From Notolepis coatsorum (taxonomy: Eukaryota; Chordata; Actinopteri; Aulopiformes; Paralepididae): DNA of 64,000 nt. The notes under the pieces were generated by a model. The model had not been told where the DNA came from and made no database searches. It saw only the letters and a list, made by a program, of their open reading frames with translations. Shown piece after piece: positions 10,691-45,680 of the stretch. The position numbers and the translations under genes were made by a program. Location of the stretch: contig OZ020591.1 of NCBI GenBank assembly GCA_963971535.1, positions 17,966,823 through 18,030,822 on the forward strand, given 5' to 3'. Each line of letters starts with the position of its first letter. Within the stretch, counting starts at the first letter, position 1.

Positions 10691-11053
10691 ATGTCCACAG
10701 AAACCGACAATTCCCATGATTCAAGGTTTTACAAAATGGTCACCTCTTGCGGAATATACAGACATTTCAAAGAGGAAAATCGATCTAACACTTTAACCTA
10801 TTCCTAAACAAACGTATTGATGATAATATACATTATACATGCTGTTGTGACATGGTTATGATGTTTATACTTGAATACGTTTGGAGAGAAAAAATCGCTA
10901 CTTTTATAGAACAGTCTGGAAAATATTGATTTATGACCAGATGTAATTTCGGCACCTGTACCGGTCCCGTCGGGTGGAAGAGGTTTTAAACAGATCACAT
11001 CTAAGTTGCACAGCATCTTCAATCTGTGGATCTATTCCCCCATGGATTTATTC

Positions 11054-21466: not shown

Positions 21467-21729
21467 CGGCTAACTGCTAACGTGCGCGGACTGATGACGA
21501 CATCAACTCGACTCGAGACATTCGCAGCAGCATAAGAAGTTAATTAAACTTGACAGACATTATATCGACGATAATTATCGATATCGAGTTATATGAAAAT
21601 AATTTTATAATTTTATCGCGATAACGTTTTTAGTCATATCGCCCAGCCCTACTACATATAGATATGATGTACAGACTAAGATCATTATGTAGATATGATT
21701 GGGAATGACGTAGAGATATGAGTGAAGGC

Positions 21730-21955
21730 TGTATGTGTGTGTGTGTATGTGTCAGAAAAGGAGAGCATAGATGTGAGATGATTGTATTTTGTGCATATGT
21801 GTACAAGTTGCAAGGGGGGTGGGGTAGTGTGTGTAGATATGTCTGGGAGTGAAGGTGTATGCAATTGTGAGTGTGTGTGTGTGCGTGTGTGTGGGATAGT
21901 AAGAGAGACAGAGAGACAGTGTGTTTGTGTGTGTGTGTGTGTGTGCATGTGGGAT
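21730..21955 (-). repeat. TG-rich microsatellite tract
   Basis: Stretches of (TG)n are separated by conserved spacers. The matching tracts are at 33,070-33,290 (D2) and, in reverse, at 45,690-45,960. Confidence 0.8.
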
Positions 21956-21972
21956 AGTGAATGAATGTCACT

Positions 21973-22116
21973 ATGAATTGAAAATGGGGGACCCTGATGT
22001 AAACAAGACAAACGTCTTTTTCTGGTCTGCAACCCCTTAACAATTGTGTGTATTGAGCCGTACTGTATTGTACCCATTCTGCAATCTGTTAAATAAAGTT
22101 TTCATTCATTCATAGT
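21973..22116 (+). mobile_element. LINE-A 3' tail with (ATTC)n end
   Basis: It runs from AATTGAAAATGGGGGACCC to AATAAAGTTTTCATTC. The same insertion is at 33,303-33,447 (D2) and in reverse at 45,530-45,678, so it predates both the palindrome and the D1/D2 duplication. Confidence 0.85.
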
Positions 22117-23306
22117 AAGAGAGACAGGGAGAGTGTGTGTGTGTGTGTGGAGCAGATGGTGGAGGTAAACGGTACCCTATCCCCCCCCTCACAGTAAGCT
22201 GTGGTGTTCCACAAGGAAGCATACTAGGTCCGCTACTGTTCCTAATTTATGCAAATGACATGTCGTCAGCTTGTGACTGCAACTTGTTCCTGTTTGCGGA
22301 CGACTCAGCCCTGCTGGTCTCTGACAAGAACAAGTTACAGGTTGAAAAAACCCTCAGCTCAGAACTAGGCAAAATCTGCATATGGCTCGCTGATAACAAA
22401 CTATCATTACACATGGGCAAAACAGAGTCCATTCTCTTCGGTTCAAATAACAAACTCAGCAAGACCGACGGCTTCTCAGTTACAGTGGGTGACAATATTG
22501 TCACAAGGAAAGAAGATATTACCTACCTGGGTTCCATCCTAGAGGCAAATCTTTCCTGTGACAAAATGGCATCCAATGTAATAAGAAAAGTCAACCAACG
22601 AACTCGATTCTTGTACCGGATCTCCTCACTGGTAAACAAGAATACCCTGAAGACTCTGGCAGGAGCACTCATTCAAGGGTACTACGACTATGCTTGCGCC
22701 TCATGGTACCAAAGCACCTCAAAGGCGCTAAAAACAAAATTACAAACATCTCAAAACAAACTGGTCAGACTACTGCTTGACCTTACTCCTAGAACCCACC
22801 TTACCCCTGCCCACTTTGACAACCTAGGATGGCTTAGAGTAGACGACAGAGTACAGCAACTTGCAATGGGCCTGGTCTACACGACCAAGGTACCCATGTA
22901 CATGTCAAAATACTTCCCAAAGGTCAGTGAATACCACGATCACAACACCAGAGGGAGCTCCACAAATCATGTTAAACCCAGATTCGGCTCAAACAAGGGA
23001 CTAAACACGTTTCGCAATTATGCCACATCAATGTGGAACGCCCTACCCAAAGCTGTAAAGGAATGTGAATCACTACTAGGGATGGGTATCGTTAGGATTC
23101 TATCGATACTACTACTCTTATCGATACTGCTTAACGGTTCGGTACTTTATCGATACTCTTATCGGTTCTTTTTGGTTCTTTTTTTGCAAGAAAAAAAGAC
23201 AATTAATTAAGAACAGAATCAACATTGCTTTATTATTTATAAATACAACTTTATAAATAAGTATTATAAATAAATATAATTTCTTCAGCAACAACAATGT
23301 TCTTTT

Positions 23307-26300: not shown

Positions 26301-27965
26301 TAATCGGTCTCCCCAGTTCCTTGGCCTCTTCCTCAGAAATGTGGGGTATCTCAAGCCCGCCAATGAACGATTCAAATCTAGAGTCATCCAGATTACCCTC
26401 TGAGCTATATAACTGTGAGTAAAACTCTTTAAAAGTGTCATTGATCTTTTTCGAATCAGTAGTGACTGCACCCTGGCTCGTCCTAATCGAGGGGATATCT
26501 GAGAAATGATCATTTGAGCGTATTTTCATTGCCAATAGATGGCTAGGTCTGGAGCCGTGAAAATAGTAATTTTGTCTTGTCCTATGTATTAAGAACTCAG
26601 ACTGTTGTTTAAGTATGGAGTTTATTTCTTTTTTGACTATCTTACGTTGTGTGTTTAGTCGTTCATTATAGTCAGTTTGCAAGGATGTGTATAGGTCCGC
26701 ATATAATGATTCCAGTCCTTCTAGCTTTTTTGACCGGGATTTTCGCAAATTGGAGGCAAATAGTGTGACATGACCCCTGATGAATCCTTTCAATGCGTTC
26801 CACAGGACCCTAGGGTCTTCTACCGTGCCAACGTTGATCTGCAAAAATTCAGCTAGTTTACTCCTGAACTCAGAACAGAAGTCATCGTTCTTTAGCAAGG
26901 TCGAATTAAAACGCCATCTGGGGGCTCTTGCGGAGAGCCTGCCAAAGGTTGCCGTAAGGAAAATCCCCTTGTGGTCTGAGAGAGCCAAGGGAACCAATGA
27001 GACATCGAAACTATCAAACATATTAGGGGACGCGAATGCATAGTCAATTCGAGAGAAGCTTTTGTGTCTGGCTGACAGGTGAGAGTAATCTCTGAGGGTG
27101 GGGTTGCATAAGCGCCAGAGGTCTGTGAGCCCCGTGTCTTTGGCCCACATCCTGAGGGCCTCAGAGGCCCGTTTCTGGTCGCTCGTTTCAGAGGTCCCGG
27201 ACCTATCCATCTCCGCATCCCAGCACGCATTAAAATCGCCACCCACAATGAGAGCGTATCCATTAAGTTCCAACATATTCTTCGTGATTGTATTATAGAA
27301 CGCTGAATCAAATGTGTTAGGAGCATACAATGCTATTATAGCCATCTTCCTATGCAAGAATTCAACTTTTGCTATAGTAATCCTTCCCTCCGTGTCCGAC
27401 CATACATCCAAGATTTTGATATCAAGGTTACGTCTTGTAACTATGACTACTCCTTTCGTCTTATCATCGGCTGAGGATGAGGAGATAACGTGATATTGCC
27501 GATTTGCCAGTCTTGACACGTCACCTACCATTAAATGCGTCTCACTAAGGAGAGCAAGGTCAATATTTCTCCTCTTCAATAGCCAAAGGACACTGGCACG
27601 CTTGTGTGGGGCGTTAAGCCCTCCTGCGTTCCAAATTAAAATATTCAATTTAGCCATGGTCGAGCTTGTATAAGTGCGTAGAGAACATACCCGTGCAGCC
27701 AGGCTGAGTACAGAGGTGCCGATCCCGGCGGGCCCGGACGGTCAATCCCAGGAGTTCAGAGGAGGAACACTTACACATATATAAGACAACAGTACATAGA
27801 ACACATAAAAATACCACCCCAGCTACAGCCCCCCCTCCTTCTACTCTAAACCCTAACCCACCCGTCCTACTATAAGTTCCTCTATACCCACTCTCCAATC
27901 CCCACCCTATGCCCCATCCACTGAGGATGGTCATCTTCCTATCACTTCCCACTAGAGACATGGAT
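23307..27965 (-). mobile_element. L1/Tx1-type LINE with intact ORF2, nested in hAT
   Basis: The 15-bp TSD CAACAATGTTCTTTT lies on each side (23,292-23,306; 27,966-27,980). The 3' end is at the left, where the reverse strand ends in an A run (T run 23,303-23,314). Only about 300 bp precede ORF2, so ORF1 and most of the 5' UTR are absent through 5' truncation. It is the youngest layer of the stack LINE-A > hAT > L1. Confidence 0.95.
23887..27657 (-). CDS. LINE ORF2 protein: AP-like endonuclease, reverse transcriptase, C-terminal Cys motif
   Basis: One uninterrupted frame of 1,256 codons. The endonuclease spans about residues 1-235: start NILIWNAGGLN, the ETH site at 39-41, GGDFNA at 139-144, SRIDYAF at 202-208 and SDHKG at 227-231. 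The reverse transcriptase spans about 440-800: GKAPGWDGIP at 467-476, the YRPLSLL block at 529-535, GFIPGR at 564-569, LDAMKAFD at 597-604 with the first catalytic Asp, GCPLSPGLF at 668-676 and YADD at 698-701. A CTLC...HMYWDC zinc-knuckle-like motif lies at 1,124-1,142. Length and layout match ORF2 of the L1/Tx1 group. It would nick target DNA and prime reverse transcription of its own RNA in the nucleus. The start is the first Met, seven residues before the conserved WNAGGLN. The intact frame implies recent insertion. Without ORF1 and a 5' UTR, autonomous mobility is unlikely. Confidence 0.95.
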   Translation of the reverse strand: MAKLNILIWNAGGLNAPHKRASVLWLLKRRNIDLALLSETHLMVGDVSRLANRQYHVISSSSADDKTKGVVIVTRRNLDIKILDVWSDTEGRITIAKVEFLHRKMAIIALYAPNTFDSAFYNTITKNMLELNGYALIVGGDFNACWDAEMDRSGTSETSDQKRASEALRMWAKDTGLTDLWRLCNPTLRDYSHLSARHKSFSRIDYAFASPNMFDSFDVSLVPLALSDHKGIFLTATFGRLSARAPRWRFNSTLLKNDDFCSEFRSKLAEFLQINVGTVEDPRVLWNALKGFIRGHVTLFASNLRKSRSKKLEGLESLYADLYTSLQTDYNERLNTQRKIVKKEINSILKQQSEFLIHRTRQNYYFHGSRPSHLLAMKIRSNDHFSDIPSIRTSQGAVTTDSKKINDTFKEFYSQLYSSEGNLDDSRFESFIGGLEIPHISEEEAKELGRPITLVELRETIVEMQRGKAPGWDGIPPEVYLAFWDQLGPLMLDMINYAIEQGEFSRDVNMALISLLLKKDKDPNDCGSYRPLSLLGADLKVFAKVLARRLQRFMSVLVHCDQTGFIPGRLAADNLRRLLHVIDNSKDNTTPSTVLSLDAMKAFDRLEWSYLWKVLEVMGLGKSFIHMIKVLYASPSAMILTGKNCSTLFPVSRSSRQGCPLSPGLFALSLEPLAQFIRQSEDIVPIMVNNTPHKIALYADDLLIFMDDPSRSATKLLRIIDDFGKLSGFKINWNKSACLPLNELAKAVRLPADIPIVEHFKYLGIEIFPTLNQTTKYNFTGTYDKIRQDLDRWSSLPSSLQARASIIKMNILPRINFISSMLPLPPPIDHWRKVQSMVSKFVWNNKRPRIKRATTQRRKQDGGLAIPDFKLYFWSFSLRPLMCWLDPVEAVSWRSLEAAAVSPLRLQDVVYSTVSIAKCRLRYGPIITHVIQTWRNVQRSCGVKCPWHLDSPIFNNQQLLVGHKPVNIPQWQRRGVHTLEDIYDKNGLRAFQDLREFYDLPGESFFLYLQLRSALRAHGVPWAQALHPHPFLRLIVDRTTSRGFVSDFYTLLIQSTYKNLSLDTIWRVDIPELDPEFDWDDVWANVALSSRNPNHQQINFNYIHRTYLTPRKLFAMGLITDSRCTLCSQKATGTYMHMYWDCPPVARFWRSITDKLSDLCGLTIPFTAVTLLLNDITTLPASVQLKRVVLAGVTAAKKLIAMRWKEPEKLTMINWSLTLLDVIYLEISTARVIGVGQAGIDLWFAAAEKVKTAVCG

Positions 27966-28856: not shown

Positions 28857-29607
28857 TTCTCTAGAGTATCGATAGCAGTACCGAGGACGTCAGAGCTTAT
28901 AAATACTCCGGTATTTTCTAATATAGTACCGGTCCCCGTTTAAAACCGGGGTCCGGGGGGCATCCCTAATCACTACCCACTTTCAAAAACACTCTCAAAA
29001 AACACCTAGGGGAGACTGCAATTAGAAACTGGCCCCTGTAAATGTCCTAACACAACCCCCTCCAATGTACAGTAAATGACCAAGTATGGTCTTGTCAATA
29101 TTCCAATGTACAGTTTTGGTTGTACAGTTGTACAGTGTCCCCCACCCACCCCTCCTACCCAACCTCCCCCCCCCCCCCCCCCACCCAACCACCTCCAATG
29201 TACAGTCCCCCCCCCACCTACCCAACCTCCTCCAATGTACAGTTTCTACGTCAAATGTATACTCTTTTTCTGGACTCTTTTCGTATCACAAACAGTACTG
29301 TATTTGCAAATCTGGTATGTCATAAATGTATAGATGTAGCAGTACTGTCTATCTGTATGTCATATGTTACGATGAATTGAAAATAGGGGACCCTGATGTA
29401 AACAAGACGAAAGTCTTTCTCTGGTCTGCATCCCCTTAACAATTGTATGTATTGTACTGTACTGTACCCATTCTGCAATCTGTTAATAAAGTTTTCAATC
29501 AATCAATGTGTGTGTTAGAAAGAGAGTAGTTGAGCCTTGTGTGATCTAATCTCCTCCATACTCATGTGTATTTAGTGATGCCAGCCTCCTTAGTCTCTCT
29601 GATCATG

Positions 29608-29733
29608 TTGATTGATTGATTGAAAACTTTATTAACATATTGCAGAATGGGTACAGTACAGCTCAATACATACAATTGTTAAGGGGATGCAGACCAGAGA
29701 AATACTTTCGTCTTGTTTACATCAGGGCCCCCC
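29608..29733 (-). mobile_element. LINE-A 3' tail, reverse orientation (D1)
   Basis: It starts with (TTGA)n followed by the complement of AATAAAGTTTTCAATC and continues to GGGCCCCCCATG. The same insertion is at 35,046-35,170 (D2) and, flipped, at 45,281-45,405. Confidence 0.85.
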
Positions 29734-29925
29734 ATGTTAGTACAGTAACTAGGCTGCACTAGTCTCTCTGATCATGTTAGTACAGTAACTAGGCTGCACT
29801 AGTGTCTCTGATCATGTTTGTACAGTAACTAGGCTGCACTAGTCTCTCTGATCATGTTAGTACAGTAACTAGGCTGCACTAGTCTCTCTGATCATGTTAG
29901 TACAGTAACTAGGCTGCACAGCCGA
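29733..29925 (+). repeat. 40-bp tandem repeat, about 5 units (D1)
   Basis: The unit GTCTCTCTGATCATGTTAGT followed by ACAGTAACTAGGCTGCACTA is repeated with one or two changes. It lies immediately upstream of the unidentified reading frame. The D2 array is at 35,170-35,365. The inverted array is at about 45,125-45,280, where a LINE-A tail interrupts it. Confidence 0.9.
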
Positions 29926-30292
29926 CAAACATAGTTGCTGCCTGCAGTACAATATCCAGGTAAGATGGCGGACGGTTATCCCATGATTTATGGCGTAATG
30001 TCGCATCTAATGTTTTATTTATGGCAGCACCGCTGGTCTAACTGTTGGGTACATTATTTAAGGTTAGGCAATTGTGAAATACTGTAATCACAAACGGGAA
30101 CATATACCTATTGATCAAAGAATAATGCCCAAAGGAGCTTTAGCCCCTTTCGTGACTTTCGGTTTGCAAGCCTGTGGCTTTTGTGACCGGAGTCACTTGC
30201 CCACCCGCCCCGATCACCCAGTAGAGAAACGACCAAGCGTCGTCAAGGGGCTCGCGGTGTGTCAAGAATACATCAGATCTGAATTTCAAAGA
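29926..30292 (+). other. Unidentified ORF segment (D1 copy) with leader-like start
   Basis: After the tandem repeat comes a leader-like stretch with AATATCCAG/GTAAGATGGCGG, which looks like a splice donor or a YY1-type AAGATGGCGG start. A frame follows reading QRIMPKGALAPFVTFGLQ, ACGFCDRSHLPTRPDHPVEK and RPSVVKGLAVCQEYIRSEFQ. The frame is kept through four copies in this window and is longer in the palindrome-centre copies. I recognise no family. The copy is cut at about 30,292 by a junction to an inverted hAT piece. Confidence 0.35.
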
Positions 30293-31806
30293 TTATTTGT
30301 ATGAAATATTGGGTCCATTTCCAGCTTGTATAATAGTATATATGTCCAAATCATGTTGTTTATCGAGTTATTGGCAATCGATCGCTATGTATTGTGTCGA
30401 GATCGAGTCCCGGTAGCCAAACAGAGTGCCCGGAAGTAATCTGGCCGACCAGCACAACCTCCATAGCACTTCCTGTTTGGCGATTGCGCCGATCGGCCAC
30501 CAGATGGCGCTCCTGAACCGCCAGAGAGCTCAGTGGGTCCTCCTGGTGGATCTCAGGCCAGCGGAGGGGAAATATGAATCCGATCGCAGATTTTTGAAAT
30601 ATTGATATAAGGACGCTGTAAAGCGTCCTCCGGCAACTTGAGCATGGCCGGGAATGACTCTTTTAAGCGTTTTCCGGCAGTCAAAGTGTTAATAAAATAT
30701 ATATATTATATAATCATACTTGTAGTTGTATTATCTGCGAGACATCGCCACTTCGCTGTCTGCAAACAGCTCCACTGTCTGTGTGTATACTCGAGTGGCC
30801 TCCAGCTCCAGCAAGGATTCTCCGGCGCTACAGCTGGACCCTAAACTCTTACATTCAGCATGAAAGGATTCTCCTGCGCTGCACCTGGGCCCTAGTCAGC
30901 AGCCCGCATGCTGATGCGATGTAACTGGACACTTGCTGCAGTTGTTGATGTCGGGAGCTATGAGTAGCTAGCCAGCTGGATAACGTTACACAATGCCTCA
31001 TGTATTAAACTAAAAGTGAATAGTTGACTGGGTCATTTTGTAACAGTAGCTAACATCAGCTCACGGAGGTCTCTCTGACTAGACTAACGTCAGTCACGGT
31101 GACTGTGTGTTTACATGCAGCATACAGAAACAGGTGGGGAGTATAGGAGCAGCAGCAGTGGGCTCGCTGTGCTCAGACAGCGAGTGAGAACTCCGCTCAG
31201 AATTGGATCATGATTTTCGGTTTTCACATGACCATTTGATTGGTCGCCACACGGCGGGCAGACCTCATAGTGGGAGGCGCCAAACGTATAAACTGAGCGC
31301 AAATGGCGGGTGGCACTCTCTAGTTTCGCCCCCTGCGTGCAAGCTAATTAGCCTAGCAAGCCTTGTTGTTGAGTCCTACCTCTGGGTCTCCTTCCGGGTC
31401 TCCTTCGCTCTCGGCCATCTCCTTCACTGATTGGTTATTAGTGCGTGTGCTCATATCCAAGCTTGGAAAATCGATATATCGAAACTTTGCGACCACGTTT
31501 CATGTTTATTTCGAGGAAATAATTTATCGCGATAGTTATCGTTTTATCGCCCAGCCCTAATATGTAGAAGGGTGGATTATCCCTACTTGGTGAGGGTGCT
31601 ATGCTACTGGCACCGGATAGTAGGCACCCGGCAGAGCTAAGTCCAGCCGGGTCCCCGACTGCAGTGTTGAGGTACTAGGCTTAAGGTTAGCAAAGGTGAC
31701 CTATAGGGCCTTAGGATTTACTGACCCAGGACTGGTGTACTGGTCCTTCCCGCCTCTTAAGGGCAATACTCAGTAACCCCTAATCACCCACGCTCCCCTA
31801 GTACGC
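30293..31806 (-). repeat. Inverted duplicate of 18,890 to about 20,400
   Basis: Read in reverse it follows the left half of the 19,360 and 19,136 hATs and part of the TTAA element, passes the hAT end TATCGCCCAGCCCTA at about 31,545-31,559, and continues into the flank (AGAAGGGTGGATTATCCC) up to 31,806. It duplicates an insertion-bearing junction, so it arose after the hAT at 19,136 inserted. Confidence 0.9.
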
Positions 31807-33037: not shown

Positions 33038-33479
33038 CAGGAATGACGTAGAGATATGAGTGAAGGCTGTATGTGTGTGTGTGTATGTGTCAGAAAAGGA
33101 GAGCATAGATGTGAGATGATTGTATTTTGTGCATATGTGTACAAGTTGCAAGGGGGGTGGGGTAGTGTGTGTAGATATGTCTGGGAGTGAAGGTGTATGC
33201 AATTGTGAGTGTGCGTGTGTGTGGGATAGTAAGAGAGACAGAGAGACAGTGTGTTTGTGTGTGTGTGTGTGTGTGCATGTGGGATAGTGAATGAATGTCA
33301 CTATGAATTGAAAATGGGGGACCCTGATGTAAACAAGACAAACGTCTTTTTCTGGTCTGCAACCCCTTAACAATTGTGTGTATTGAGCCGTACTGTATTG
33401 TACCCATTCTGCAATCTGTTAAATAAAGTTTTCATTCATTCATAGTAAGAGAGACAGGGAGAGTGTGTGTGTGTGTGTG

Positions 33480-34942
33480 GAGCAGATGGTGGAGGTAAAC
33501 GGTACCCTATCCCCCCCCTCACAGTAAGCTGTGGTGTTCCACAAGGAAGCATACTAGGTCCGCTACTGTTCCTAATTTATGCAAATGACATGTCGTCAGC
33601 TTGTGACTGCAACTTGTTCCTGTTTGCGGACGACTCAGCCCTGCTGGTCTCTGACAAGAACAAGTTACAGGTTGAAAAAACCCTCAGCTCAGAACTAGGC
33701 AAAATCTGCATATGGCTCGCTGATAACAAACTATCATTACACATGGGCAAAACAGAGTCCATTCTCTTCGGTTCAAATAACAAACTCAGCAAGACCGACG
33801 GCTTCTCAGTTACAGTGGGTGACAATATTGTCACAAGGAAAGAAGATATTACCTACCTGGGTTCCATCCTAGAGGCAAATCTTTCCTGTGACAAAATGGC
33901 ATCCAATGTAATAAGAAAAGTCAACCAACGAACTCGATTCTTGTACCGGATCTCCTCACTGGTAAACAAGAATACCCTGAAGACTCTGGCAGGAGCACTC
34001 ATTCAAGGGTACTACGACTATGCTTGCGCCTCATGGTACCAAAGCACCTCAAAGGCGCTAAAAACAAAATTACAAACATCTCAAAACAAACTGGTCAGAC
34101 TACTGCTTGACCTTACTCCTAGAACCCACCTTACCCCTGCCCACTTTGACAACCTAGGATGGCTTAGAGTAGACGACAGAGTACAGCAACTTGCAATGGG
34201 CCTGGTCTACACGACCAAGGTACCCATGTACATGTCAAAATACTTCCCAAAGGTCAGTGAATACCACGATCACAACACCAGAGGGAGCTCCACAAATCAT
34301 GTTAAACCCAGATTCGGCTCAAACAAGGGACTAAACACGTTTCGCAATTATGCCACATCAATGTGGAACGCCCTACCCAAAGCTGTAAAGGAATGTGAAT
34401 CACTACCCACTTTCAAAAACACTCTCAAAAAACACCTAGGGGAGACTGCAATTAGAAACTGGCCCCTGTAAATGTCCTAACACAACCCCCTCCAATGTAC
34501 AGTAAATGACCAAGTATGGTCTTGTCAATATTCCAATGTACAGTTTTGGTTGTACAGTTGTACAGTGTCCCCCACCCACCCCTCCTACCCAACCTCCCCC
34601 CCCCCCCCCCCCCCCCACCCAACCACCTCCAATGTACAGTCCCCCCCCCACCTACCCAACCTCCTCCAATGTACAGTTTCTACGTCAAATGTATACTCTT
34701 TTTCTGGACTCTTTTCGTATCACAAACAGTACTGTATTTGCAAATCTGGTATGTCATAAATGTATAGATGTAGCAGTACTGTCTATCTGTATGTCATATG
34801 TTACGATGAATTGAAAATAGGGGACCCTGATGTAAACAAGACGAAAGTCTTTCTCTGGTCTGCATCCCCTTAACAATTGTATGTATTGAGCTGTACTGTA
34901 CTGTACCCATTCTGCAATCTGTTAATAAAGTTTTCAATCAAT
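33480..34942 (+). mobile_element. LINE-A copy 4 (D2), uninterrupted 3' half
   Basis: The frame reaches a stop at 34,471. It includes GVPQGSILGP, FADDSALLVSDKN, KTESILFGS, ALIQGYYDYACASW, HNTRGSSTNHVKPRFGS and a terminal TAIRNWPL. The C-rich 3' UTR with CCTCCAATGTACAGT units follows, then AATAAAGTTTTCAATC. It is the reference empty site for the hAT in D1. Confidence 0.92.
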
Positions 34943-35045
34943 CAATGTGTGTGTTAGAAAGAGAGTAGTTGAGCCTTGTGTGATCTAATCTCCTCCATAC
35001 TCATGTGTATTTAGTGATGCCAGCCTCCTTAGTCTCTCTGATCAT

Positions 35046-35365
35046 GTTGATTGATTGATTGAAAACTTTATTAACATATTGCAGAATGGGTACAGTACAG
35101 CTCAATACATACAATTGTTAAGGGGATGCAGACCAGAGAAATACTTTCGTCTTGTTTACATCAGGGCCCCCCATGTTAGTACAGTAACTAGGCTGCACTA
35201 GTCTCTCTGATCATGTTAGTACAGTAACTAGGCTGCACTAGTGTCTCTGATCATGTTTGTACAGTAACTAGGCTGCACTAGTCTCTCTGATCATGTTAGT
35301 ACAGTAACTAGGCTGCACTAGTCTCTCTGATCATGTTAGTACAGTAACTAGGCTGCACAGCCGAC
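35046..35365. repeat. Reverse LINE-A tail plus 40-bp tandem array (D2)
   Basis: Same content and order as 29,608-29,925. Confidence 0.88.
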
Positions 35366-35698
35366 AAACATAGTTGCTGCCTGCAGTACAATATCCAGGT
35401 AAGATGGCGGACGGTTATCCCATGATTTATGGCGTAATGTCGCATCTAATGTTTTATTTATGGCAGCACCGCTGGTCTAACTGTTGGGTACATTATTTAA
35501 GGTTAGGCAATTGTGAAATACTGTAATCACAAACGGGAACATATACCTATTGATCAAAGAATAATGCCCAAAGGAGCTTTAGCCCCTTTCGTGACTTTCG
35601 GTTTGCAAGCCTGTGGCTTTTGTGACCGGAGTCACTTGCCCACCCGCCCCGATCACCCAGTAGAGAAACGACCAAGCGTCGTCAAGGGGCTCGCGGTG
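35366..35698 (+). other. Unidentified ORF segment (D2), interrupted by transposon; continues at 44,302
   Basis: Same frame as 29,926-30,256 up to GVVKG-like sequence ending in CTCGCGGTG, where the 8.6-kb element enters. The 6 bp GCGGTG (35,693-35,698) is repeated at 44,302-44,307 and the remainder (TGTCAAGAATACATCAG onward) follows there. D1 and the right-arm copy show the uninterrupted sequence. Confidence 0.5.
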
Positions 35699-35737
35699 TA
35701 TGGAAGCAAATGAGTGCCATAAGTATTTGAATTTAAT

Positions 35738-35903
35738 CAGACACCGCATTTATAGCATTGAAAATAATTACTTTGAAAACATGTATAATAACTTTGAAAA
35801 CATGTATCTGAATTTTTTCGGACACCGCATTTATAGTTTCAGACACCGCATTTATAGTTCCAGACACCGCATTTATAGTTTCAGACACCGAATTTATAGC
35901 ATT
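35738..35903 (+). repeat. Sub-terminal minisatellite of the IS3EU-like element (left)
   Basis: About five copies of CAGACACCGCATTTATAG separated by short AT-rich spacers. The mirror set, with fewer copies, is at about 44,117-44,270. Such sub-terminal arrays often act as transposase binding sites, which is inference here. Confidence 0.88.
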
Positions 35904-36423
35904 GCAAATAAATACTTTGAAAATCATGTATCTGAATTTTTTTGCTCAGAGTTTACCAAAAATGCAGTGTTAATAAAAAAATTCGAGTGCATAATAAAAT
36001 TCAATGTAAAAATGCAGTGTTCATTAAAAAATTCGATGCATAATTGCGGTGTATATAATTCGATGTCAAAAATTGCGGTGTGTGGATTTCGACGTAAAAA
36101 ACCCAACATCCGGGTTACCCAGAGTCCCAGACAGGATAAAGCAATCGAGCTGGATGTGATCGAACTGACTTCTGGCCTATCACTGCACGGCGTTGTCAGT
36201 CATGTGATCACAACAACCCAGGAAGCCGGGCTCCGGTAAGTCAGTTAGTTCTGTGTTCCGTGTTGCAATAAACGTTCAACGATGTCAACAAAACGGTATC
36301 TTATTACCGCTTTCCTCCCGACGACAAAGAGAAAAGAAGGTGGCTGAAGCCTGAAGTTGATACAGTAAGTTTGATCTCAATGATAAACAATAATTAACAG
36401 GTAGGCTAACGGCAGGCACCACT

Positions 36424-36570
36424 ACGAATTGAAAATGGGGGACCCTGATGTAAACAAGACGAAAGTCTTTCTCTGGTCTGCATCCCCTTAACAATTGTGT
36501 GTATTGAGCCGTACTGTATTGTACCCATTCTGCAATCTGTTAAATAAAGTTTCCAATCATTCATTCAGGC
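36424..36570 (+). mobile_element. LINE-A 3' tail inside the IS3EU-like left TIR
   Basis: From AATTGAAAATGGGGGACCC to AATAAAGTTTCCAATC, (ATTC)n. The mirror copy is at 43,454-43,599, so it predates the inverted arrangement. Confidence 0.85.
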
Positions 36571-36944
36571 TAGGCTAACATTAGGTACTACTACTAGTTA
36601 GGTAACGTTAGCTAGAATCCAAATAGAAAATCAAGAATCCAAATCAAAAGTCTTATATAAGGTTATGAGATGAACATGTATGTTATGTATGTTATGAAAT
36701 GAATATGTATGTAATATGTAATAAAAACGCAGCTCAACGCATACATTTGATCTAGAACCCCGTTTGTTGTCCCCTAACTGTTATACGAAGATGGCCGGCG
36801 GTCTCGTGACAACCAGAATACAAAACATTACCTGTTGTTATTGTTAAGTCGCTATCTTGTGATAGTAACATGGTCGTGGTGTGAATTACCTCTAAATTAA
36901 AGTATTTTTGGATGACACAACACAGTAATAAGAAGGATGGCAAG

Positions 36945-37950
36945 TAGGCCTGCCGCGATAAGCAATAAATCGATTAATTGCCGCGATAATTAAAATGAAT
37001 GCAATGATTTTGACGGGCGCGATTAATTGCTATTTGCGCGTTTGTTTTAATGAGGCGGACCCAGTGCCCCTTGTCAGTCACTGTCCGTGTTGTGTCTATT
37101 CTACTAGCATTAACGTTACTCATACAAACAGAGTAAACACAGTTTTCAATCAATCAATCAATAACAACATTAACGAGACCCTCGTTGTGTCTATTCTGCT
37201 AACGCTAACGTTACCTCTCACACTATTCTACAAGCGTTAACGTTAGCTAGGCTGTCTATGCTAACGTTAACGAGCATTAGGCTAACAAGCTGTAACGTTA
37301 CCAGTCGCGTCTATTTGCTAACGTTAGCATTAGGTAATAACCGGTTTAAAATGGATGGTGATTACCTCACGTTGTGTCTATTCTACTAGCATTAACGTTA
37401 CTCATACAAACAATCAATAGCGAGTTATATTGATCACGCTATGTACGATAGCCATGCTAAAACGCTAGCACAACATTAGCACCTAACCTAACAACAAGCC
37501 TTAACAAGTCAGCGATCTTTTTGCGAGACTAAACTCTCCGCTCGGTGGCAAATTGTGTTGATGTCGGTTTTGTTTAATCAATAAATGAGGCAGAATACAC
37601 AGTGACTGTATCCTTTGTTTATTGCACTTGTGCCTGCTGCAAACATAATGATTATGAAATCCTAGAGACGCGTCTCTATTCAGTGGTCTGCAGTGTTTCA
37701 CGTGACTTTTCTGGTACCCAAAAAGTACCTGAAATAATCACAACAATACTTCCGGTCCGGTCGGTGGGCTTCAAAATAAAAGTCTTAAACACCGGAAAAG
37801 ACGGAGCGGTGGGCTTCAAAATAAAAGTTTTGGGAAATAAATTTCTCCAAAAAAAAAAAAATTCTCTAACCGGTCGCAATAATATCGCTTATCGCGATAT
37901 TTTCGGGGGCAATTAATCGCCCAGCAAAATGTGTTATCGTGGCAGGCCTA
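36945..37950 (+). mobile_element. hAT (TAGGCCTGCCGCGATAA ends), private to left TIR
   Basis: TIRs TAGGCCTGCCGCGATAA and TTATCGTGGCAGGCCTA have the exact 8-bp TSD ATGGCAAG (36,937-36,944; 37,951-37,958). The right TIR has the empty site near 43,077-43,084. The interior is rich in CTAACGTTA and includes a repeated GTGGGCTTCAAAATAAAAGT segment (about 37,766 and 37,811). Confidence 0.93.
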
Positions 37951-39220
37951 ATGGCAAGTGTATGATGGCATGCATGTACAATAATGCTGTGTATACCCTA
38001 ATTATATTTATTCTTAATGTACTGTATATATATCCACATGTGTTTGTACATATAACTGCATATAAACCTTTTACATATCTGTAGATACTACTATATCTAT
38101 ATCTGTACATATCCCTTACCTACTCTTACTAGTTACGCTGCTGGCCAGTATGACTACCATAGTGTCTTTGTATACCTGCTGTATCAATGTACATAATAAT
38201 ACAACTCTGTACATACATATGATCTGATTAGCATTATTACTCAGTAGTACTGATTTATATATTTTAAACAATATAATGAATTAAGGTTTTGTTTTATTTG
38301 TCACATAAGGTACATGTACATTACAGTGAAACACTTGGTTCTGTATGAGCCTCCTGAGATTGTGCTTCATAGAAGTTTTTCTAGAAGTTAGACATCTCTT
38401 TGATCCAATGACCTTGTAGTAGACAGAAATCTATTTGTTTGTTTCTTCATATCACAGTTTACAATTTATTTTCTTTTTGCAGGCATGACTTCACCCCAAC
38501 ATCCCCTGAGTGGAACATGGAAAGAGTGTTGACCTTGATGTTTATCGTTGTCTTTCAACCATATTGTTTGTTACTGTTTAATAAATTGTTTGTTACTGTT
38601 GATGTTTAATAAATGTTTATCGTCGTCTTTCAACACCCTGCCTCAGACTCCTATCCATGGTAACTCCCAGCTATTACTAAAGTTGATTTCAAGACGTGAC
38701 TCGGGGGCGTTCCAAGGGTGCGTTCCAGCAGAGGTGTTCATTGACTCCAGTGTTTATTATGTATTTTCACAGCAGAAAAACACTCAAGTTATTCCTTTCT
38801 TCCGTTCAGAATCAGCCAGCCTGTTGTATATTGAACAGCCCAGTATATGTATTAGGGATGCACAGTATGGAGGTTTTTTCAGCCGATAACGGATCACTAC
38901 CTGCTGCTCATGGCGAATACTGATAACTTCATAACGTGTAGTTTATACACAACTGAGGGTCTACAGATCTAAAGGACAACAACCAATCAGAGCACTTGTC
39001 TGCCATAAAAACATAATACATCTGTAAAATAACAAGGGAACAAAGGTGAATTGTGCCACATTTATTTTAAACGTGTTTTATGTTTACTCTGGTGTTTAAA
39101 TTTCTGTGAATATAGTTTGTATTATGTACTGTTTACATTTTGTACAATCGTCGTTTCTGTAAATGAGGGAAACCTCAGAGGCTTACGATTTTAAATAAAG
39201 GTTGAAATGAAAAAATTTGG

Positions 39221-39457
39221 TTACAGAAAAAGACCTAACCTCTCTTTCTCAGTCATCAGATAGAACATGCTCACAACATTGAACAGCAGCAATGTAGATC
39301 TCACAGACTGGGATGCAGCTAGTAGGTCAACAGCTTCTCTTAAAGCAGCCATTAGTCCATCAGTCAGTGGGCTCTCTGTGTTTGGGACAATGACACTAGA
39401 GTGGCCATCAGGAGCAAATCCACTGTTCTCCCACTCAATCTGAGGAATATCCACACC
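39221..39457 (-). CDS. Integrase-like gene, last exon (left TIR copy)
   Basis: An acceptor AG at 39,458-39,459 precedes GTGGATATTCC. The frame reads VDIPQIEWENSGFAPDGHS, then VIVPNTESPLTDGLMAALRE, and ends at the stop at 39,221. It is the tail downstream of the integrase core in this vertebrate gene type. The inverted twin is 41,573-41,809, differing at one residue I noticed (Leu versus Arg in AVDL/RAAS). Confidence 0.7.
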   Translation of the reverse strand, partial: GVDIPQIEWENSGFAPDGHSSVIVPNTESPLTDGLMAALREAVDLLAASQSVRSTLLLFNVVSMFYLMTEKERLGLFL

Positions 39458-39822
39458 CTAAAAACAACAGAAATAGAAAGCCTTATTTGTGGTATTAATT
39501 ATCTTGATAGACAGCAGCAGTAAGGTGGGCACTTATGGTTTTTGAAATCTGTATGCTCCTACTCATTTATCTTTCTGTTTTCACATACTGTAACTCATTT
39601 TCTAGGACTATAAGCCCTAAACCACTGCCCATGTTGTTTACCAAATGTTCATGGCTCTTATTCTGACCTACACTTTTGTAATTCACTCAGCATATGAATT
39701 GTTCCCACATGTAAGAGAAATTACATTTTCTCATCAGGAAACCTTTCTTATGCATTTGACACATCCCAACTTTTGCCATACAGTATAACTATGCTATAGT
39801 TCAAATATTTTCACCTATTTAC

Positions 39823-40099
39823 CTTGCTGTCAGATAGCCCTTTCTGGTGGGGAACAGGCTTTCGTCCCAGCTCCCACAGCTGATTTGGGGTCATATGGCC
39901 TTCTGTTCTTATAGGATGATTTGCCCAGCCACTGCGGAATGTGTCCAGGTCATCGTGAAGCCGTGGCAGGAACACATAATGGCAACAGAGGTGTGTAGCA
40001 TTGCCAATGTTGAGGAACCCCTCTTCTTCAAGGTAGTGTAGAGCATCATAGTAGATGACTGTAACAGCTGTCCACATGTCTCGCCATAGCCTCTCTATC
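39823..40099 (-). CDS. Integrase-like gene, catalytic-Glu exon (left TIR copy)
   Basis: An acceptor (TTTTCCAG) precedes it and a donor (AAG/GTAAAT) follows. It encodes IERLWRDMWTAVTVIYYDAL, then HYLEEEGFLN, and later WANHPIRTEGHMTPNQLWELG. The IERLWRD block matches the position of the catalytic glutamate in rve-type DDE integrases, and the HPxRTExxxxPxQLW segment is characteristic of the integrase-core (rva_4-like) proteins common in fish. Intact as an exon here; only its 3' third is kept in the right copy (41,112-41,207). Confidence 0.75.
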
Positions 40100-40779
40100 C
40101 TGGAAAATTGCGAGTTTACCAGAACATTTTAAAGTTAAAGGACAGGGAATGGCAATATTTGCATTTGTGGCAGATTTGACATGGAATTATTATGTATGTA
40201 TAATAAACAACTGATCATGTAAGATCTCAGCAGTTTCTTTTGTTGAGAAAAGGTTTCCAGCAACAACAAATGCACAGATGGATTTTATTTTAAATGCAAT
40301 CCAATGATCATTGTGTGTATTTCTTTATCTACCCTTTCATGAGTCATTATTGTCAGTCCAAAACAAGAGATTATGTTTTTGTAACATGTTTCTAAAACAT
40401 CTCGTGTTATTTACATACTAAGACAATAGGTGTGACATACAAATGTAATTCGACACACACTTCCCAGCAAAAACTGTAAATTTTTATTTTTGCAGCAAGG
40501 AAGAGATTGTTTAATTTGCATGATGAAGAGGTCACAGTTAAGTACCCTTTGACTGACATCAACTCCCACCGTAGAGAGGAATTTTACCTCACACTATTGC
40601 AAATAACAGTACTGCTTCTAGAAGGTATATGTGTAGCAAACAGTACAGTTCTGGCATGGCAGCAGTAAGATGGTGTCTTTCAACTAGCTTATATACAATA
40701 TAATATATACAATAATACAATAAATTCACCAAACACTACACAATACCAATGCTGTAGACTGATGAAAATATAATTTATT

Positions 40780-40829
40780 TATCTGGCCTTCTTCCAAGAA
40801 TCTGTCAAGAAATTTGGTTTCCCTCTTAG
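40780..40829 (+). CDS. Integrase-like gene, upstream exon end
   Basis: The forward frame reads LAFFQESVKKFGFPLR up to a donor (CTTAG/GTAAAT) at 40,829/40,830. The exon start is not visible and may be truncated. Confidence 0.55.
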
Positions 40830-40910
40830 GTAAATATTTCCTGAGGCAGTGGGGGGCCATTGAAACCAACACTTAATGTGGTCTTTGTTGTAATTGTTGG
40901 TATATTTTAG

Positions 40911-41021
40911 GGTACGAGCTGATCAGGGGGTGGAAAATGTGGACGTTCCACGTCTCATGTTTACAGTCCGTGGCACTGGAAGGGGCAGCTTTATATCTGG
41001 CAAGAGTGTTCACAACCAACG
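40911..41021 (+). CDS. Integrase-like gene, exon with second catalytic Asp
   Basis: Bounded by acceptor TATATTTTAG and donor CG/GTAAGC. The frame reads [36 protein letters not shown]. The RADQGVEN block carries the second aspartate of the DDE triad, and GRxSFIxGxSVHNQR is the conserved run that leads into the IERLWRD exon. The first Asp of the triad is not seen in the window. This shows the gene is spliced, as in several vertebrate DNA transposons. Confidence 0.75.
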
Positions 41022-41111
41022 GTAAGCCCAAAAGATCAGAGATTGCTAGTTGAAAGACACCATCTCACTGCTGCCATGCCAGAACTGTACTGTTTGCTAC
41101 ACATATACCGC

Positions 41112-41207
41112 AACAGAAGGCCATATGACCCCAAATCAGCTGTGGGAGCTGGGACGAAGCTGGGACGAAAGCCTGTTCCCCACCAGAAAGGGCTATCTGA
41201 CAGCAAG
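41112..41207 (+). pseudogene. Integrase-like gene, truncated catalytic exon (right TIR copy)
   Basis: Only the HMTPNQLWELG-to-SDSK end of the exon remains, with its donor (AAG/GTAAAT). The 5' part with the IERLWRD block is deleted together with about 740 bp present in the left copy. A short GCTGGGACGAA duplication is also present. The forward-strand exon series therefore lacks the catalytic glutamate. Confidence 0.7.
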
Positions 41208-41572
41208 GTAAATAGGTGAAAATATTTGAACTATAGCATAGTTATACTGTATGGCAAAAGTTGGGATGTGTCAAATGCATAAGAAAGGTTTCCTGATGAG
41301 AAAATGTAATTTCTCTTACATGTGGGAACAATTCATATGCTGAGTGAATTACAAACGTGTAGGTCAGAATAAGAGCCATGAACATTTGGTAAACAACATG
41401 GGCAGTGGTTTAGGGCTTATAGTCCTAGAAAATGAGTTACAGTATGTGAAAACAGAAAGATAAATGAGTAGGAGCATACAGATTTCAAAAACCATAAGTG
41501 CCCACCTTACTGCTGCTGTCTATCAAGATAATTAATACCACAAATAAGGCTTTCTATTTCTGTTGTTTTTAG

Positions 41573-41809
41573 GGTGTGGATATTCCTCAGATTGAGTGGG
41601 AGAACAGTGGATTTGCTCCTGATGGCCACTCTAGTGTCATTGTCCCAAACACAGAGAGCCCACTGACTGATGGACTAATGGCTGCTTTAAGAGAAGCTGT
41701 TGACCTACGAGCTGCATCCCAGTCTGTGAGATCTACATTGCTGCTGTTCAATGTTGTGAGCATGTTCTATCTGATGACTGAGAAAGAGAGGTTAGGTCTT
41801 TTTCTGTAA
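41573..41809 (+). CDS. Integrase-like gene, last exon (right TIR copy)
   Basis: Inverted twin of 39,221-39,457, with the same acceptor (GTTTTTAG) and stop. See that entry for content. Confidence 0.7.
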   Translation, partial: GVDIPQIEWENSGFAPDGHSSVIVPNTESPLTDGLMAALREAVDLRAASQSVRSTLLLFNVVSMFYLMTEKERLGLFL

Positions 41810-41999
41810 CCAAATTTTTTCATTTCAACCTTTATTTAAAATCGTAAGCCTCTGAGGTTTCCCTCATTTACAGAAACGACGATTGTACAAAATGTAAACA
41901 GTACATAATACAAACTATATTCACAGAAATTTAAACACCAGAGTAAACATAAAACACGTTTAAAATAAATGTGGCACAATTCACCTTTTGTTCCCTTGT

Positions 42000-44116
42000 T
42001 ATTTTACAGATGTATTATGTTTTTATGGCAGACAAGTGCTCTGATTGGTTGTTGTCCTTTAGATCTGTAGACCCTCAGTTGTGTATAAACTACACGTTAT
42101 GAAGTTATCAGTATTCGCCATGAGCAGCAGGTAGTGATCCGTTATCGGCTGAAAAAACGTCCATACTGTGCATCCCTAATACATATACTGGGCTGTTCAA
42201 TATACAACAGGCTGGCTGATTCTGAACGGAAGAAAGGAATAACTTGAGTGTTTTTCTGCTGTGAAAATACATAATAAACACTGGAGTCAATGAACACCTC
42301 TGCTGGAACGCACCCTTGGAACGCCCCCGAGTCACGTCTTGAAATCAACTTTAGTAATAGCTGGGAGTTACCATGGATAGGAGTCTGAGGCAGGGTGTTG
42401 AAAGACGACGATAAACATTTATTAAACATCAACAGTAACAAACAATTTATTAAACAGTAACAAACAATATGGTTGAAAGACAACGATAAACATCAAGGTC
42501 AACACTCTTTCCATGTTCCACTCAGGGGATGTTGGGGTGAAGTCATGCCTGCAAAAAGAAAATAAATTGTAAACTGTGATATGAAGAAACAAACAAATAG
42601 ATTTCTGTCTACTACAAGGTCATTGGATCAAAGAGATGTCTAACTTCTAGAAAAACTTCTATGAAGCACAATCTCAGGAGGCTCATACAGAACCAAGTGT
42701 TTCACTGTAATGTACATGTACCTTATGTGACAAATAAAACAAAACCTTAATTCATTATATTGTTTAAAATATATAAATCAGTACTACTGAGTAATAATGC
42801 TAATCAGATCATATGTATGTACAGAGTTGTAGTATTATTATGTACATTGATACAGCAGGTATACAAAGACACTATGGTAGTCATACTGGCCAGCAGCGTA
42901 ACTAGTAAGAGTAGGTAAGGGATATGTACAGATATAGATATAGTAGTATCTACAGATATGTAAAAGGTTTATATGCAGTTATATGTACAAACACATGTGG
43001 ATATATATACAGTACATTAAGAATAAATATAATTAGGGTATACACAGCATTATTGTACATGCATGCCATCATACACTTGCCATCCTTCTTATTACTGTGT
43101 TGTGTCATCCAAAAATACTTTAATTTAGAGGTAATTCACACCACGACCATGTTACTATCACAAGATAGCGACTTAACAATAACAACAGGTAATGTTTTGT
43201 ATTCTGGTTGTCACGAGACCGCCGGCCATCTTCGTATAACAGTTAGGGGACAACAAACGGGGTTCTAGATCAAATGTATGCGTTGAGCTGCGTTTTTATT
43301 ACATATTACATACATATTCATTTCATAACATACATAACATACATGTTCATCTCATAACCTTATATAAGACTTTTGATTTGGATTCTTGATTTTCGATTTG
43401 GATTCTAGCTAACGTTACCTAACTAGTAGTAGTACCTAATGTTAGCCTAGCCTGAATGAATGATTGGAAACTTTATTTAACAGATTGCAGAATGGGTACA
43501 ATACAGTACGGCTCAATACACACAATTGTTAAGGGGATGCAGACCAGAGAAAGACTTTCGTCTTGTTTACATCAGGGTCCCCCATTTTCAATTCGTAGTG
43601 GTGCCTGCCGTTAGCCTACCTGTTAATTATTGTTTATCATTGAGATCAAACTTACTGTATCAACTTCAGGCTTCAGCCACCTTCTCTTCTCTTTGTCGTC
43701 GGGAGGAAAGCGGTAATAAGATACCGTTTTGTTGACATCGTTGAACGTTTATTGCAACACGGAACACAGAACTAACTGACTTACCGGAGCCCGGCTTCCT
43801 GGGTTGTTGTGATCACATGACTGACAAAGCCGTGCAGTGATAGGCCAGAAGTCAGTTCGATCACATCCAGCTCGATTGCTTTATCCTGTCCGGGACTCTG
43901 GGTAACCCGGATGTTGGGTTTTTTACGTCGAAATCCACACACCGCAATTTTTTACATCGAATTATATACACCGCAATTATGCATCGAATTTTTTAATGAA
44001 CACTGCATTTTTACATTGAATTTTATTATGCACTCGAAATTTTTTATTAACACTGCATTTTTGGTAAACTCTGAGCAAAAAAATTCAGATACATGATTTT
44101 CAAAGTATTTATTTGC
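42000..44116 (-). repeat. Right TIR body of the IS3EU-like element
   Basis: Reverse complement of about 35,900-39,080 without the private hAT. It contains the paired LINE-A tail (43,454-43,599), the AATAAA/CTTTCAACACC motif (about 42,375-42,430) and a hAT-end fragment (42,108-42,185). Confidence 0.88.
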
Positions 44117-44301
44117 AATGCTATAAATTCGGTGTCTGAAACTATAAATGCGGTGTCTGGAACTATAAATGCGGTGTCTGAAAAAAATTCAGATACATGT
44201 TTTCAAAGTTATTATACATGTTTTCAAAGTAATTATTTTCAATGCTATAAATGCGGTGTCTGATTAAATTCAAATACTTATGGCACTCATTTGCTTCCAT
44301 A

Positions 44302-44535
44302 GCGGTGTGTCAAGAATACATCAGATCTGAATTTCAAAGATACCCAGCGTACAATATGGGTCTAACACAGCTTCACGATGGGGTCTGGAAGCTCGGAGTT
44401 GCTAATAAACAGTTTAAAACATTGTTACTCGACGAGTGGTATTTACAGACCGAACGTCCATCTCCGCCGTTGGTGTCACAGCGCATGCGCACCATGCCGC
44501 GTTCACGTTACTGGGAAGAAGCGGAAGAACCAGAG
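44302..44535 (+). other. Unidentified ORF, second part (left arm of palindrome centre)
   Basis: It continues the frame interrupted at 35,698: CQEYIRSEFQRYPAYNMGLT, QLHDGVWKLGVANKQFKTLL and LDEWYLQTERPSPPLVSQRM. It ends at the palindrome spacer. A perfect GCGCATGCGC (44,481-44,490), the core of an NRF-1 site, lies near its end, as in the inverted copy. No family is recognised. Confidence 0.4.
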
Positions 44536-44722: not shown

Positions 44723-45135
44723 GGAAACTGGTTCTTCCGCTTCTTCCCAGTAACGTGAACTTGGAATGGTGCGCATGCGCTGTGACACCAACGGCGGAGA
44801 TGGACGTTCGGTCTGTAAATACCACTCGTCGAGTAACAATGTTTTAAACTGTTTATTAGCAACTCCGAGCTTCCAGACCCCATCGTGAAGCTGTGTTAGA
44901 CCCATATTGTACGCTGGGTATCTTTGAAATTCAGATCTGATGTATTCTTGACACACCGCGAGCCCCTTGACGACGCTTGGTCGTTTCTCTACTGGGTGAT
45001 CGGGGCGGGTGGGCAAGTGACTCCGGTCACAAAAGCCACAGGCTTGCAAACCGAAAGTCACGAAAGGGGCTAGGGATAACCGTCCGCCATCTTACCTGGA
45101 TATTGTTTAGGCAGCAACTATGTTTGTCGGCTGTG
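44723..45135 (-). other. Unidentified ORF, right-arm copy (reverse strand)
   Basis: On the reverse strand it runs from leader AATATCCAGGTAAGATGGCGG through FVTFGLQACGFCDRSHLPTR to QTERPSPPLVSQRMRT. It is the longest uninterrupted version of the frame. Compared with D1, about 150 bp between the leader and the FVTFG block are missing. GCGCATGCGC recurs at 44,771-44,780. Product unknown. Confidence 0.4.
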
Positions 45136-45680
45136 CAGCCTAGTTACTGTATACTAACATGATCAGAGAGACTAGTGCAGCCTAGTTACTGTACTAACAT
45201 GATCAGAGAGACTAGTGCAGCATAGTTACTGTACCAACATGATCAGAGGGACTAGTGCAGCCTAGTTACTGTACTAACATGGGGGGCCCTGATGTAAACA
45301 AGACGAAAGTCTTTGGTCTGCATCCCCTTAACAATTGTATGTATTGAGCTGTACTGTACCCATTCTGCAATATGTTAATAAAGTTTTCAATCAATCAATC
45401 AATCAACATGATCAGAGAGACTAAGGAGGCTGGCATCACTAAATACACATACGTGTGGAGGAGATTAGATCACACAAGGCTCAACTACTCTCTTTGTAAC
45501 ACACACACACTCTCCCTGTCTCTCTTACTATGAATGAATGAATGAAAACTTTATTTAACAGATTGCAGAATGGGTACAATACAGTACGGCTCAATACACA
45601 CAATTGTTAAGGGGATGCAGACCAGAAAAAGATGTTTGTTTTGTTTACATCAGGGTCCCCCATTTTCAATTCATAGTGAC
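45125..45680 (-). repeat. 40-bp array and two LINE-A tails, right arm
   Basis: Inverted counterpart of 29,600-29,925 and 21,973-22,116. One 40-bp unit is split by a LINE-A tail (45,281-45,405, forward), and a second tail (45,530-45,678) is reverse. Between them, around 45,500-45,510, is the empty site of LINE-A copies 3 and 4. Confidence 0.85.

Follow-up and report, generated by a model that had tools for sequence, protein, structure and literature searches.

The window analysed here is a 64,000-bp stretch of the Notolepis coatsorum genome (contig OZ020591.1, positions 17,966,823 to 18,030,822), and it contains a palindromic DNA transposon of 8603 bp at 35699-44301, which carries fragments of a DDE transposase gene. 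The exact junctions were GCGGTG/TATGGAAGC...GCTTCCATA/GCGGTG, with a 6-bp target-site duplication (TSD) and termini of the TATGG..CCATA form (TATGGAAGCAAATGAG and its complement). These boundaries confirmed the first-pass annotation, made from the letters of the window, which had given the element TAT/ATA ends and the same TSD and had reported an empty site. When the element was removed, its flanks joined and the joined sequence matched to the rest of the window, that empty site proved real and present twice (Table 1); the local duplications thus probably took place before the insertion. A search of the species' own assembly (3.42 Gb) for the 24-bp terminus, allowing up to 2 mismatches, gave 552 forward and 548 reverse matches against 0 for the reversed control, which excludes chance. 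The first 100 places of these ~1100 termini were itemised, and all 100 were exact.

The arms of the window element paired in three blocks on self-alignment: 35699-36945 with 44301-43075 (97.9% identity), 37951-39907 with 43083-41112 (99.1%) and 40624-40688 with 41109-41045 (98.5%). The left arm is interrupted by a 1006-bp insertion, which we take to be hAT-like. The net pairable arm came to ~3.2 kb; the long inverted arms previously described as terminal inverted repeats (TIRs) of 3.3-5 kb are thus real, but in this copy they lie at the low end of that estimate. The palindrome has arms of ~4.07 kb and a loop of ~357 bp, and the cleanest copy (C1:180042415-180050908, 8494 bp) has arms of 4067 bp, 99.83% identical, around a loop of ~357 bp. 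The outermost 518 bp of the window element contained five copies of AGACACCGCATTTATAG and two of AACTTTGAAAACATGTAT, with up to 2 substitutions. A dispersed repeat of ~145 bp was also present within the arms (element positions 722-869).

Remnants of four kinds of exon were found in the palindrome, in line with the earlier estimate of at least four exons. The profile search matched PF24764 (rva_4) at 39811-40128 on the minus strand (profile 103-182, E=4.4e-25) and at 40903-41022 on the plus strand (profile 67-104, E=1.6e-10), and acceptor and donor motifs accompanied the coding fragments. The spacing from the second catalytic D to the E was 34 residues. Of the transposase gene, the palindrome contains the 3' half alone, with the exon bearing the second D in the loop and the exon bearing the E, together with the C-terminal exon, in the arms; its breakpoint falls inside the exon between the first and second D. 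In the window copy the second-D exon reads rightward, into the arm with the broken E exon, and the open E exon lies in the left arm in the opposite direction, with its 3' part changed by a 210-bp deletion.

The exon bearing the first D was represented by P0001, an open reading frame (ORF) taken from a relative on C13. Searched against 12 palindromic copies that had been read over their full length, P0001 gave nothing better than E=0.4; the 12 comprised the window element, 10 other large copies and one copy of subfamily B (defined as copies with the full E exon in both arms), and one of them, C4a, has 5000 N inside. It was likewise unmatched in one partial subfamily-B locus, and the positive control L053 gave E=1e-160. 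A complete transposase gene in the palindrome was therefore rejected, and the palindrome can only be a non-autonomous member of its family. Of the spliced DDE integrase that the first-pass annotation had placed at the centre, the rve-like coding fragments and their splice sites stood, as did one catalytic exon and a piece of another at the centre itself; the other exons lie in the arms, and the exon with a helix-turn-helix (HTH)-like region and the first D did not match in this or the 11 other palindromes. Likewise rejected was a frameshift of the second-D exon throughout subfamily B: the longer A-run was present in 1 of 15 matched sequences (the C1:55.58-Mb copy).

Table 1. Features of the palindromic element and its flanks in the window
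Feature	Position	Strand	Basis
Left TSD GCGGTG	35693..35698	none	Sequence
Left arm, including the 1006-bp insertion	35699..40688	+	Self-alignment; alignment to clean copy C1
Terminal repeat common with family 5'-type ends, 518 bp, 92.2%	35699..36216	+	Alignment
Insertion, left arm only, 1006 bp	36945..37950	none	Ends TAGGCCTGCC/GGCAGGCCTA, 8-bp TSD ATGGCAAG
C-terminal exon, left-arm copy (GVDIPQIEWENSG...)	39221..39457	-	No Pfam match
E exon (RIERLWRDMW...), left arm, open	39823..40099	-	rva_4; starts after TTTCCAG; end inferred from GTA donor
Unpaired loop, 356 bp	40689..41044	+	Self-alignment
AT-rich filler, ~94 bp, palindrome centre	40689..40782	none	blastn: matches confined to loci with a palindrome centre
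3' part of the exon lying between the first-D and second-D exons (FFQESVKKFGFPLR)	40783..40829	+	Sequence; donor GTAAAT
Second-D exon (...SVHNQR)	40911..41021	+	rva_4 match; acceptor TTTTAG, donor GTAAGC
Right arm, inner part (most of E exon) deleted	41045..44301	-	Self-alignment; alignment to C1
C-terminal exon, right-arm copy	41573..41809	+	No Pfam match
Right TSD GCGGTG	44302..44307	none	Sequence
Paralogous empty site	30110..30293	+	Joined flanks match 100% over the junction
Second paralogous empty site, inverted	44804..45072	-	Joined flanks match 100% over the junction

The genome search for other copies found the same ends and inverted arms in 10/10 other large copies, read whole or as adjoining pieces, and in one subfamily-B copy. 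The latter (C4:91679889-91688530) was read whole and measured 8642 bp, with arms of 4143 bp at 99.83% identity; four other B loci, read in part, were 99.2-99.8% identical to it in the longest alignment. By their listed ends, eight subfamily-B copies measured 8.62-8.64 kb and seven others 8.0-14.5 kb, among the matches listed. An exact 6-bp TSD was present in 34 of the 37 large copies with both ends read, so that the termini and TSD length of the window element recur elsewhere in the genome. The 37 comprised the window element, the 10 copies, the B copy and 25 end pairs, for which only the ends were read; two 5'-type elements, described below, were counted apart. Among the exceptions, C35:90671201 matched in 5 of 6 bases, and C43:111435586-111473017 had unrelated flanks and is perhaps not one insertion; the third is taken up below. 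Two of the 34 (C8:188466544 and C8:188743959) had identical flanks and are not independent, and the TSD of C6:130240852 was read by eye next to a doubled end. At that right end (C6:130250017-130250110, L112), two tandem terminal sequences 34 bp apart were followed by the 6-bp TSD CTGTGG.

Three small copies of 133-234 bp were also read. Those of 133 and 160 bp (L066 and L064) were left with one end of ~108-120 bp and a second end of 40-58 bp and were flanked by 6-bp TSDs; the third, L065, had no TSD. The 4-kb arms are therefore not needed in cis. The palindrome family is young and recently amplified.

The assignment to the IS3EU superfamily was supported by the rva_4 match, the ends and the TSDs. 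IS3EU families are described in the relevant passages of PMC10045372 as having TA..TA ends, usually 6-bp TSDs, an IS3-like DDE core and no HHCC, and rust-fungus members end in TAYGG..CCRTA according to the corresponding part of PMC12730594. The TATGG..CCATA ends and the 6-bp TSD of the window element fit this description, and P0001 contained neither CxxC nor HxxxH, and hence no HHCC-like motif in the one exon checked, the first-D exon of the C13 relative. For IS481EU, the same passages of PMC10045372 give TNT..AYA ends and TSDs of ~4, 15 or 25 bp. As TAT..ATA also fits TNT..AYA literally, it is the TSD length, 6 bp here, that separates the element from IS481EU. The resemblance to the IS3EU described in those sources thus extends to the form of the ends, the TSDs and the lack of HHCC, and probably to the DDE core; the window copy differs in lacking the 5' half of the gene, in being palindromic and in having arms of 4 kb as against a family end repeat of ~490-540 bp. 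A separate rve-type superfamily, Ginger-like or new, could be argued for, IS3EU/GingerRoot being treated as one group and not split from IS481EU in the tree of PMC10045372. The ends, the TSDs and the missing HHCC-like motif of the first-D ORF speak against that reading, which we regard as quite improbable. Our literature search found no paper equating rva_4 with IS3EU. Short of a tree with Repbase proteins, the element fits a non-autonomous member of IS3EU.

The missing first-D exon was present in other elements bearing the same ends. One of these, C13:179977073-180009679 (32.6 kb, TSD TTAGGG, of which ~18 kb was read), starts with the same terminus and contains LINE-like (long interspersed nuclear element) insertions. 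On one strand it carries, in order, the first-D ORF (ending MHIDTNHKLIR), a short exon FGGIDGFSRKV, and an exon MYLGAASNN...FFQESVEKFGFPLR, followed by the exons with the second D and the E. Over 1859 bp, the 3' half of this element and the subfamily-B arm were 96.5% identical. Beside this 3' half a true 3' end was sought for 6 kb further, where no arm sequence was found besides a dispersed repeat, together with LINE-like frames. When P0001 was searched against the genome, 150 of 157 candidates were scored and 126 matches resulted, of which 5 were full-length at 98-100%, 23 partial at 78-97%, and the remainder lower. Two of the five full-length places, C13 and C3161, were letter-identical over 3249 bp and may be one element. 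P0001 itself gave weak matches below the curated cut-offs, the best HTH match being HTH_8 (E=0.00039), followed by the start of rva_4 (2-21, E=0.0032) and the IS3-like HTH_21 (E=0.0038).

The second element, C35:99137568-99143436 (L058 and L063; 5869 bp, TSD CACGAC), has 5'-type inverted arms of 1.2 kb at 96.4% identity, and in the C13 element 5'-type sequence lies in opposite orientation at the two ends (L053 against L061, ~95%). C13 and C35 thus show that the 5' half, too, has undergone inverted duplication. The stretch shared by 5'-type and 3'-type ends measured 489 bp in C1, 518 bp in the window element and 540 bp in subfamily B. The unusual length claimed for the TIRs therefore stands for the arms, at ~4 kb, but appears specific to the derivative: by these comparisons the arms look like an inverted duplication of the 3' half and not like the family's normal TIR, the repeat common to its end types being ~490-540 bp. 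Separately, the interval C7:19555466-19561399 (L024, L059) was noted as a possible chimera of both halves.

The junction at the palindrome centre was found at 43 places in the genome and was letter-identical over 41 bp in 42 of them. At this junction the coding part starts inside the exon between the first and second D, after the ~94-bp filler, and the filler had no match in the loci above 1 kb compared, other than loci with a palindrome centre. The junction being common to 43 places, a single formation event was followed by spread of the palindrome. Of 11 copies tested against the subfamily-B loop, 9 aligned, 7 of them with the whole loop and 2 in pieces, and C4a and C8 did not align. Some library chemistries are known to create long perfect palindromes artificially, so that hairpin reads could in principle have produced false palindromes in the assembly. 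Exact TSDs outside both ends of many copies, insertions and deletions confined to single arms, a centre breakpoint that recurs at 43 places and the pair of paralogous empty sites all argue against an artefact, which is exceedingly improbable here.

Both arms were compared in 12 copies, one of them a partial subfamily-B locus, and sites were scored in at least 8 copies. Thirteen variants, 7 of them within 31 bp and perhaps one event, were present in both arms of 4/4 copies of one subfamily (C1, C24, C21b and C4b); 12 of the 13 were in neither arm of the other scored copies, and the variant at 840 was also in one arm of two others. As the centre breakpoint is shared, independently formed palindromes fail to explain such two-arm variants, and sequence must have been transferred from arm to arm or from copy to copy. 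The 210-bp deletion was present in one arm only in 6 of the 12 copies (C13, C43, C24, C3246, C21a and C4b), in both arms of C1 and the window element, and in neither arm of C21b and B, and was unscorable in C4a and C8. A non-palindromic relative, L025, aligns through the 210-bp block, so that the deletion is the derived state. An extra 11-bp duplication was present in the right arm of the window element and in the deleted arms of C13 and C43. A 124-bp insertion, for which the ~145-bp dispersed repeat is the likely source, occurred on both sides of the palindrome in C1 and C21b but on one side only in C24 and C4b. The two arms appear to evolve partly in concert, as mosaics of one another.

Flipping of the loop relative to the inner arms was examined separately. 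After the loops had been oriented, ten shared inner-arm sites (3247, 3318, 3319, 3322, 3323, 3628, 3687, 3853, 4001 and 4046) each kept one phase, and mixed phase was seen at three others, 3782 in the inner arm and 348 and 2307 further out. With ten inner sites in one phase and 3782 mixed, flipping was unsupported.

These data also bear on the reading of the element as an autonomous IS3EU transposon, in which the giant TIR would be the normal architecture and the gene would run from the loop into an arm. The second-D exon of the loop does read into an arm bearing E and C-terminal exons, the one-arm 210-bp deletions lay in the arm behind the second-D exon in 6/6 cases while the arm ahead of the gene kept the block, and the A-run was normal, at this spot, in 14 of the 15 matched sequences, one of which is a non-palindromic relative. 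However, the first-D exon was unmatched in all 12 copies read end to end, the coding part of the loop begins in mid-exon after a filler confined to palindrome-centre loci, and none of the 5 places with a full-length first-D exon at ≥98% is among the 43 centre places. We therefore hold an autonomous element with giant TIRs to be very improbable.

Very likely, the element is a non-autonomous, palindromic IS3EU-type member that arose by a one-time inverted duplication of the 3' half, was moved in trans and has exchanged sequence between its arms. One past event would have joined two inverted 3' halves around a loop of ~357 bp including the ~94-bp filler. Both sides would have received the E exon, the C-terminal exon, the non-coding 3' DNA and the terminus, and one of them the second-D exon region as well. 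Faulty gap repair may have been the cause, with synthesis switching between the ~500-bp terminal repeats so that the 3' half was copied twice and the ends were joined with filler. Since both outer ends are normal termini, a transposase supplied in trans could move the palindrome; the IS3EU transposase of elements keeping the first-D exon would thus have mobilised it as a unit with 6-bp TSDs, and recent amplification after its formation would have brought the centre to the present 43 assembly places. Patchy gene conversion between paired arms may then have carried new variants into both.

Alternatively, two ordinary elements could have inserted head to head, been fused by deletion and since been carried as a unit. 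The same final anatomy would be expected, and the filler at the joint would fit end joining, but this course requires two adjoining inverted insertions plus a deletion, and the 5'-type ends, inverted on both sides as well (C35 and C13), suggest a recurring end-linked process. A head-to-head fusion is possible, though doubtful.

Several points weigh against a one-time duplication of the 3' half followed by spread and exchange between arms. Among private variants, 113 of 153 occurred in one arm only, so exchange has not been continuous; subfamily B entered the comparison as one copy, so that the 40 private two-arm variants may include differences belonging to subfamily B; and exchange may have taken place with other copies instead of between arms. 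Some of the 43 places are on unplaced contigs, and the members of the C8 pair share their flanks, so the number of distinct insertions is somewhat lower. At one of the 43 (C7:19.561 Mb), residues 1-32 and 44-115 of P0001, without the first D, lay 5-6 kb off, so the 5' and 3' halves are sometimes neighbours. The third TSD exception, C4:102376408, had 7 matching bases instead of 6. An ordinary 5'-to-3' element, with a 5'-type end on one side and a 3'-type end on the other, was not encountered, and the first-D elements with both ends read (C13 and C35) are all 5'-type; the ancestor is therefore only inferred.

Compared with known systems, the window element resembles miniature inverted-repeat transposable elements (MITEs) in sharing its ends with the 133-234-bp copies and in probably having moved in trans, but at 8.6 kb and with gene fragments it is unlike them. 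Tetris is reportedly a foldback element with long, changing TIRs. Galileo, of the P superfamily, shares long, changing TIRs and the recruitment of internal sequence into them, but belongs to a different superfamily with a 7-bp TSD, and the second-longest TIRs are quoted there at ~1.6 kb (relevant passages of PMC4168063). Coding exons inside the TIRs, present in the window element, are not described for Galileo in those passages. The closest structural parallel is maize Mu killer, described in the corresponding section of PMC3440606 as an inverted duplication of part of mudrA in which one terminal region occurs twice; for Mu killer, a hairpin RNA against the active element has been proposed. 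In both, part of a transposase gene is inversely duplicated with one terminal region present twice; Mu killer, as described there, is a locus, whereas the window element belongs to a multicopy family with TSDs, and the two are likened by structure only.

By analogy, read-through RNA might fold into a long hairpin directed against the 3' exons of the active IS3EU family, with conversion keeping the arms matched. Such a mobile, Mu-killer-like repressor in an animal genome is unlikely; if it were true, a parasite's own derivative would be a spreading repressor of its parent. The palindrome in any case offers a testable counterpart to Mu killer, where a rearranged transposon silences its parent. 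Our literature searches, which did not extend to Repbase, found no report of palindromic IS3EU elements. What is new is a palindrome that is half an element doubled, which arose once, spread without a complete transposase gene and has arms that are mutual mosaics. A single genome here shows a DNA transposon spawning a large and successful palindromic derivative, and the 210-bp deletion and 124-bp insertion, found in one, both or neither arm, serve as natural markers of arm-to-arm exchange.

The whole window (1-64000) is itself a large imperfect inverted duplication centred at ~31-32 kb, with blocks mostly 90-98% identical (for example, 277-1787 with 62624-61113, and 10688-12600 with 53462-51571). 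Younger blocks at 99% pair 21702-23076 with 33040-34406 and 28968-30260 with 34398-35699. An open frame of 1284 aa at 23887-27741 (-) resembles a LINE endonuclease/reverse-transcriptase polyprotein, and shorter reverse-transcriptase-like frames were present at 2486-3592, 22119-23210 and 33449-34471. The ~145-bp dispersed repeat had 14 matches in the window outside the element, including 21969-22113, 33299-33443, 45531-45678 and 3975-4115. Several other rva_4 families were also identified in the genome (L009-L022, at C23:84.8 Mb, C6:176.6 Mb, C8:170.5 Mb, C4:60.5 Mb and elsewhere), some of which carry uninterrupted integrase frames of 241-308 aa.

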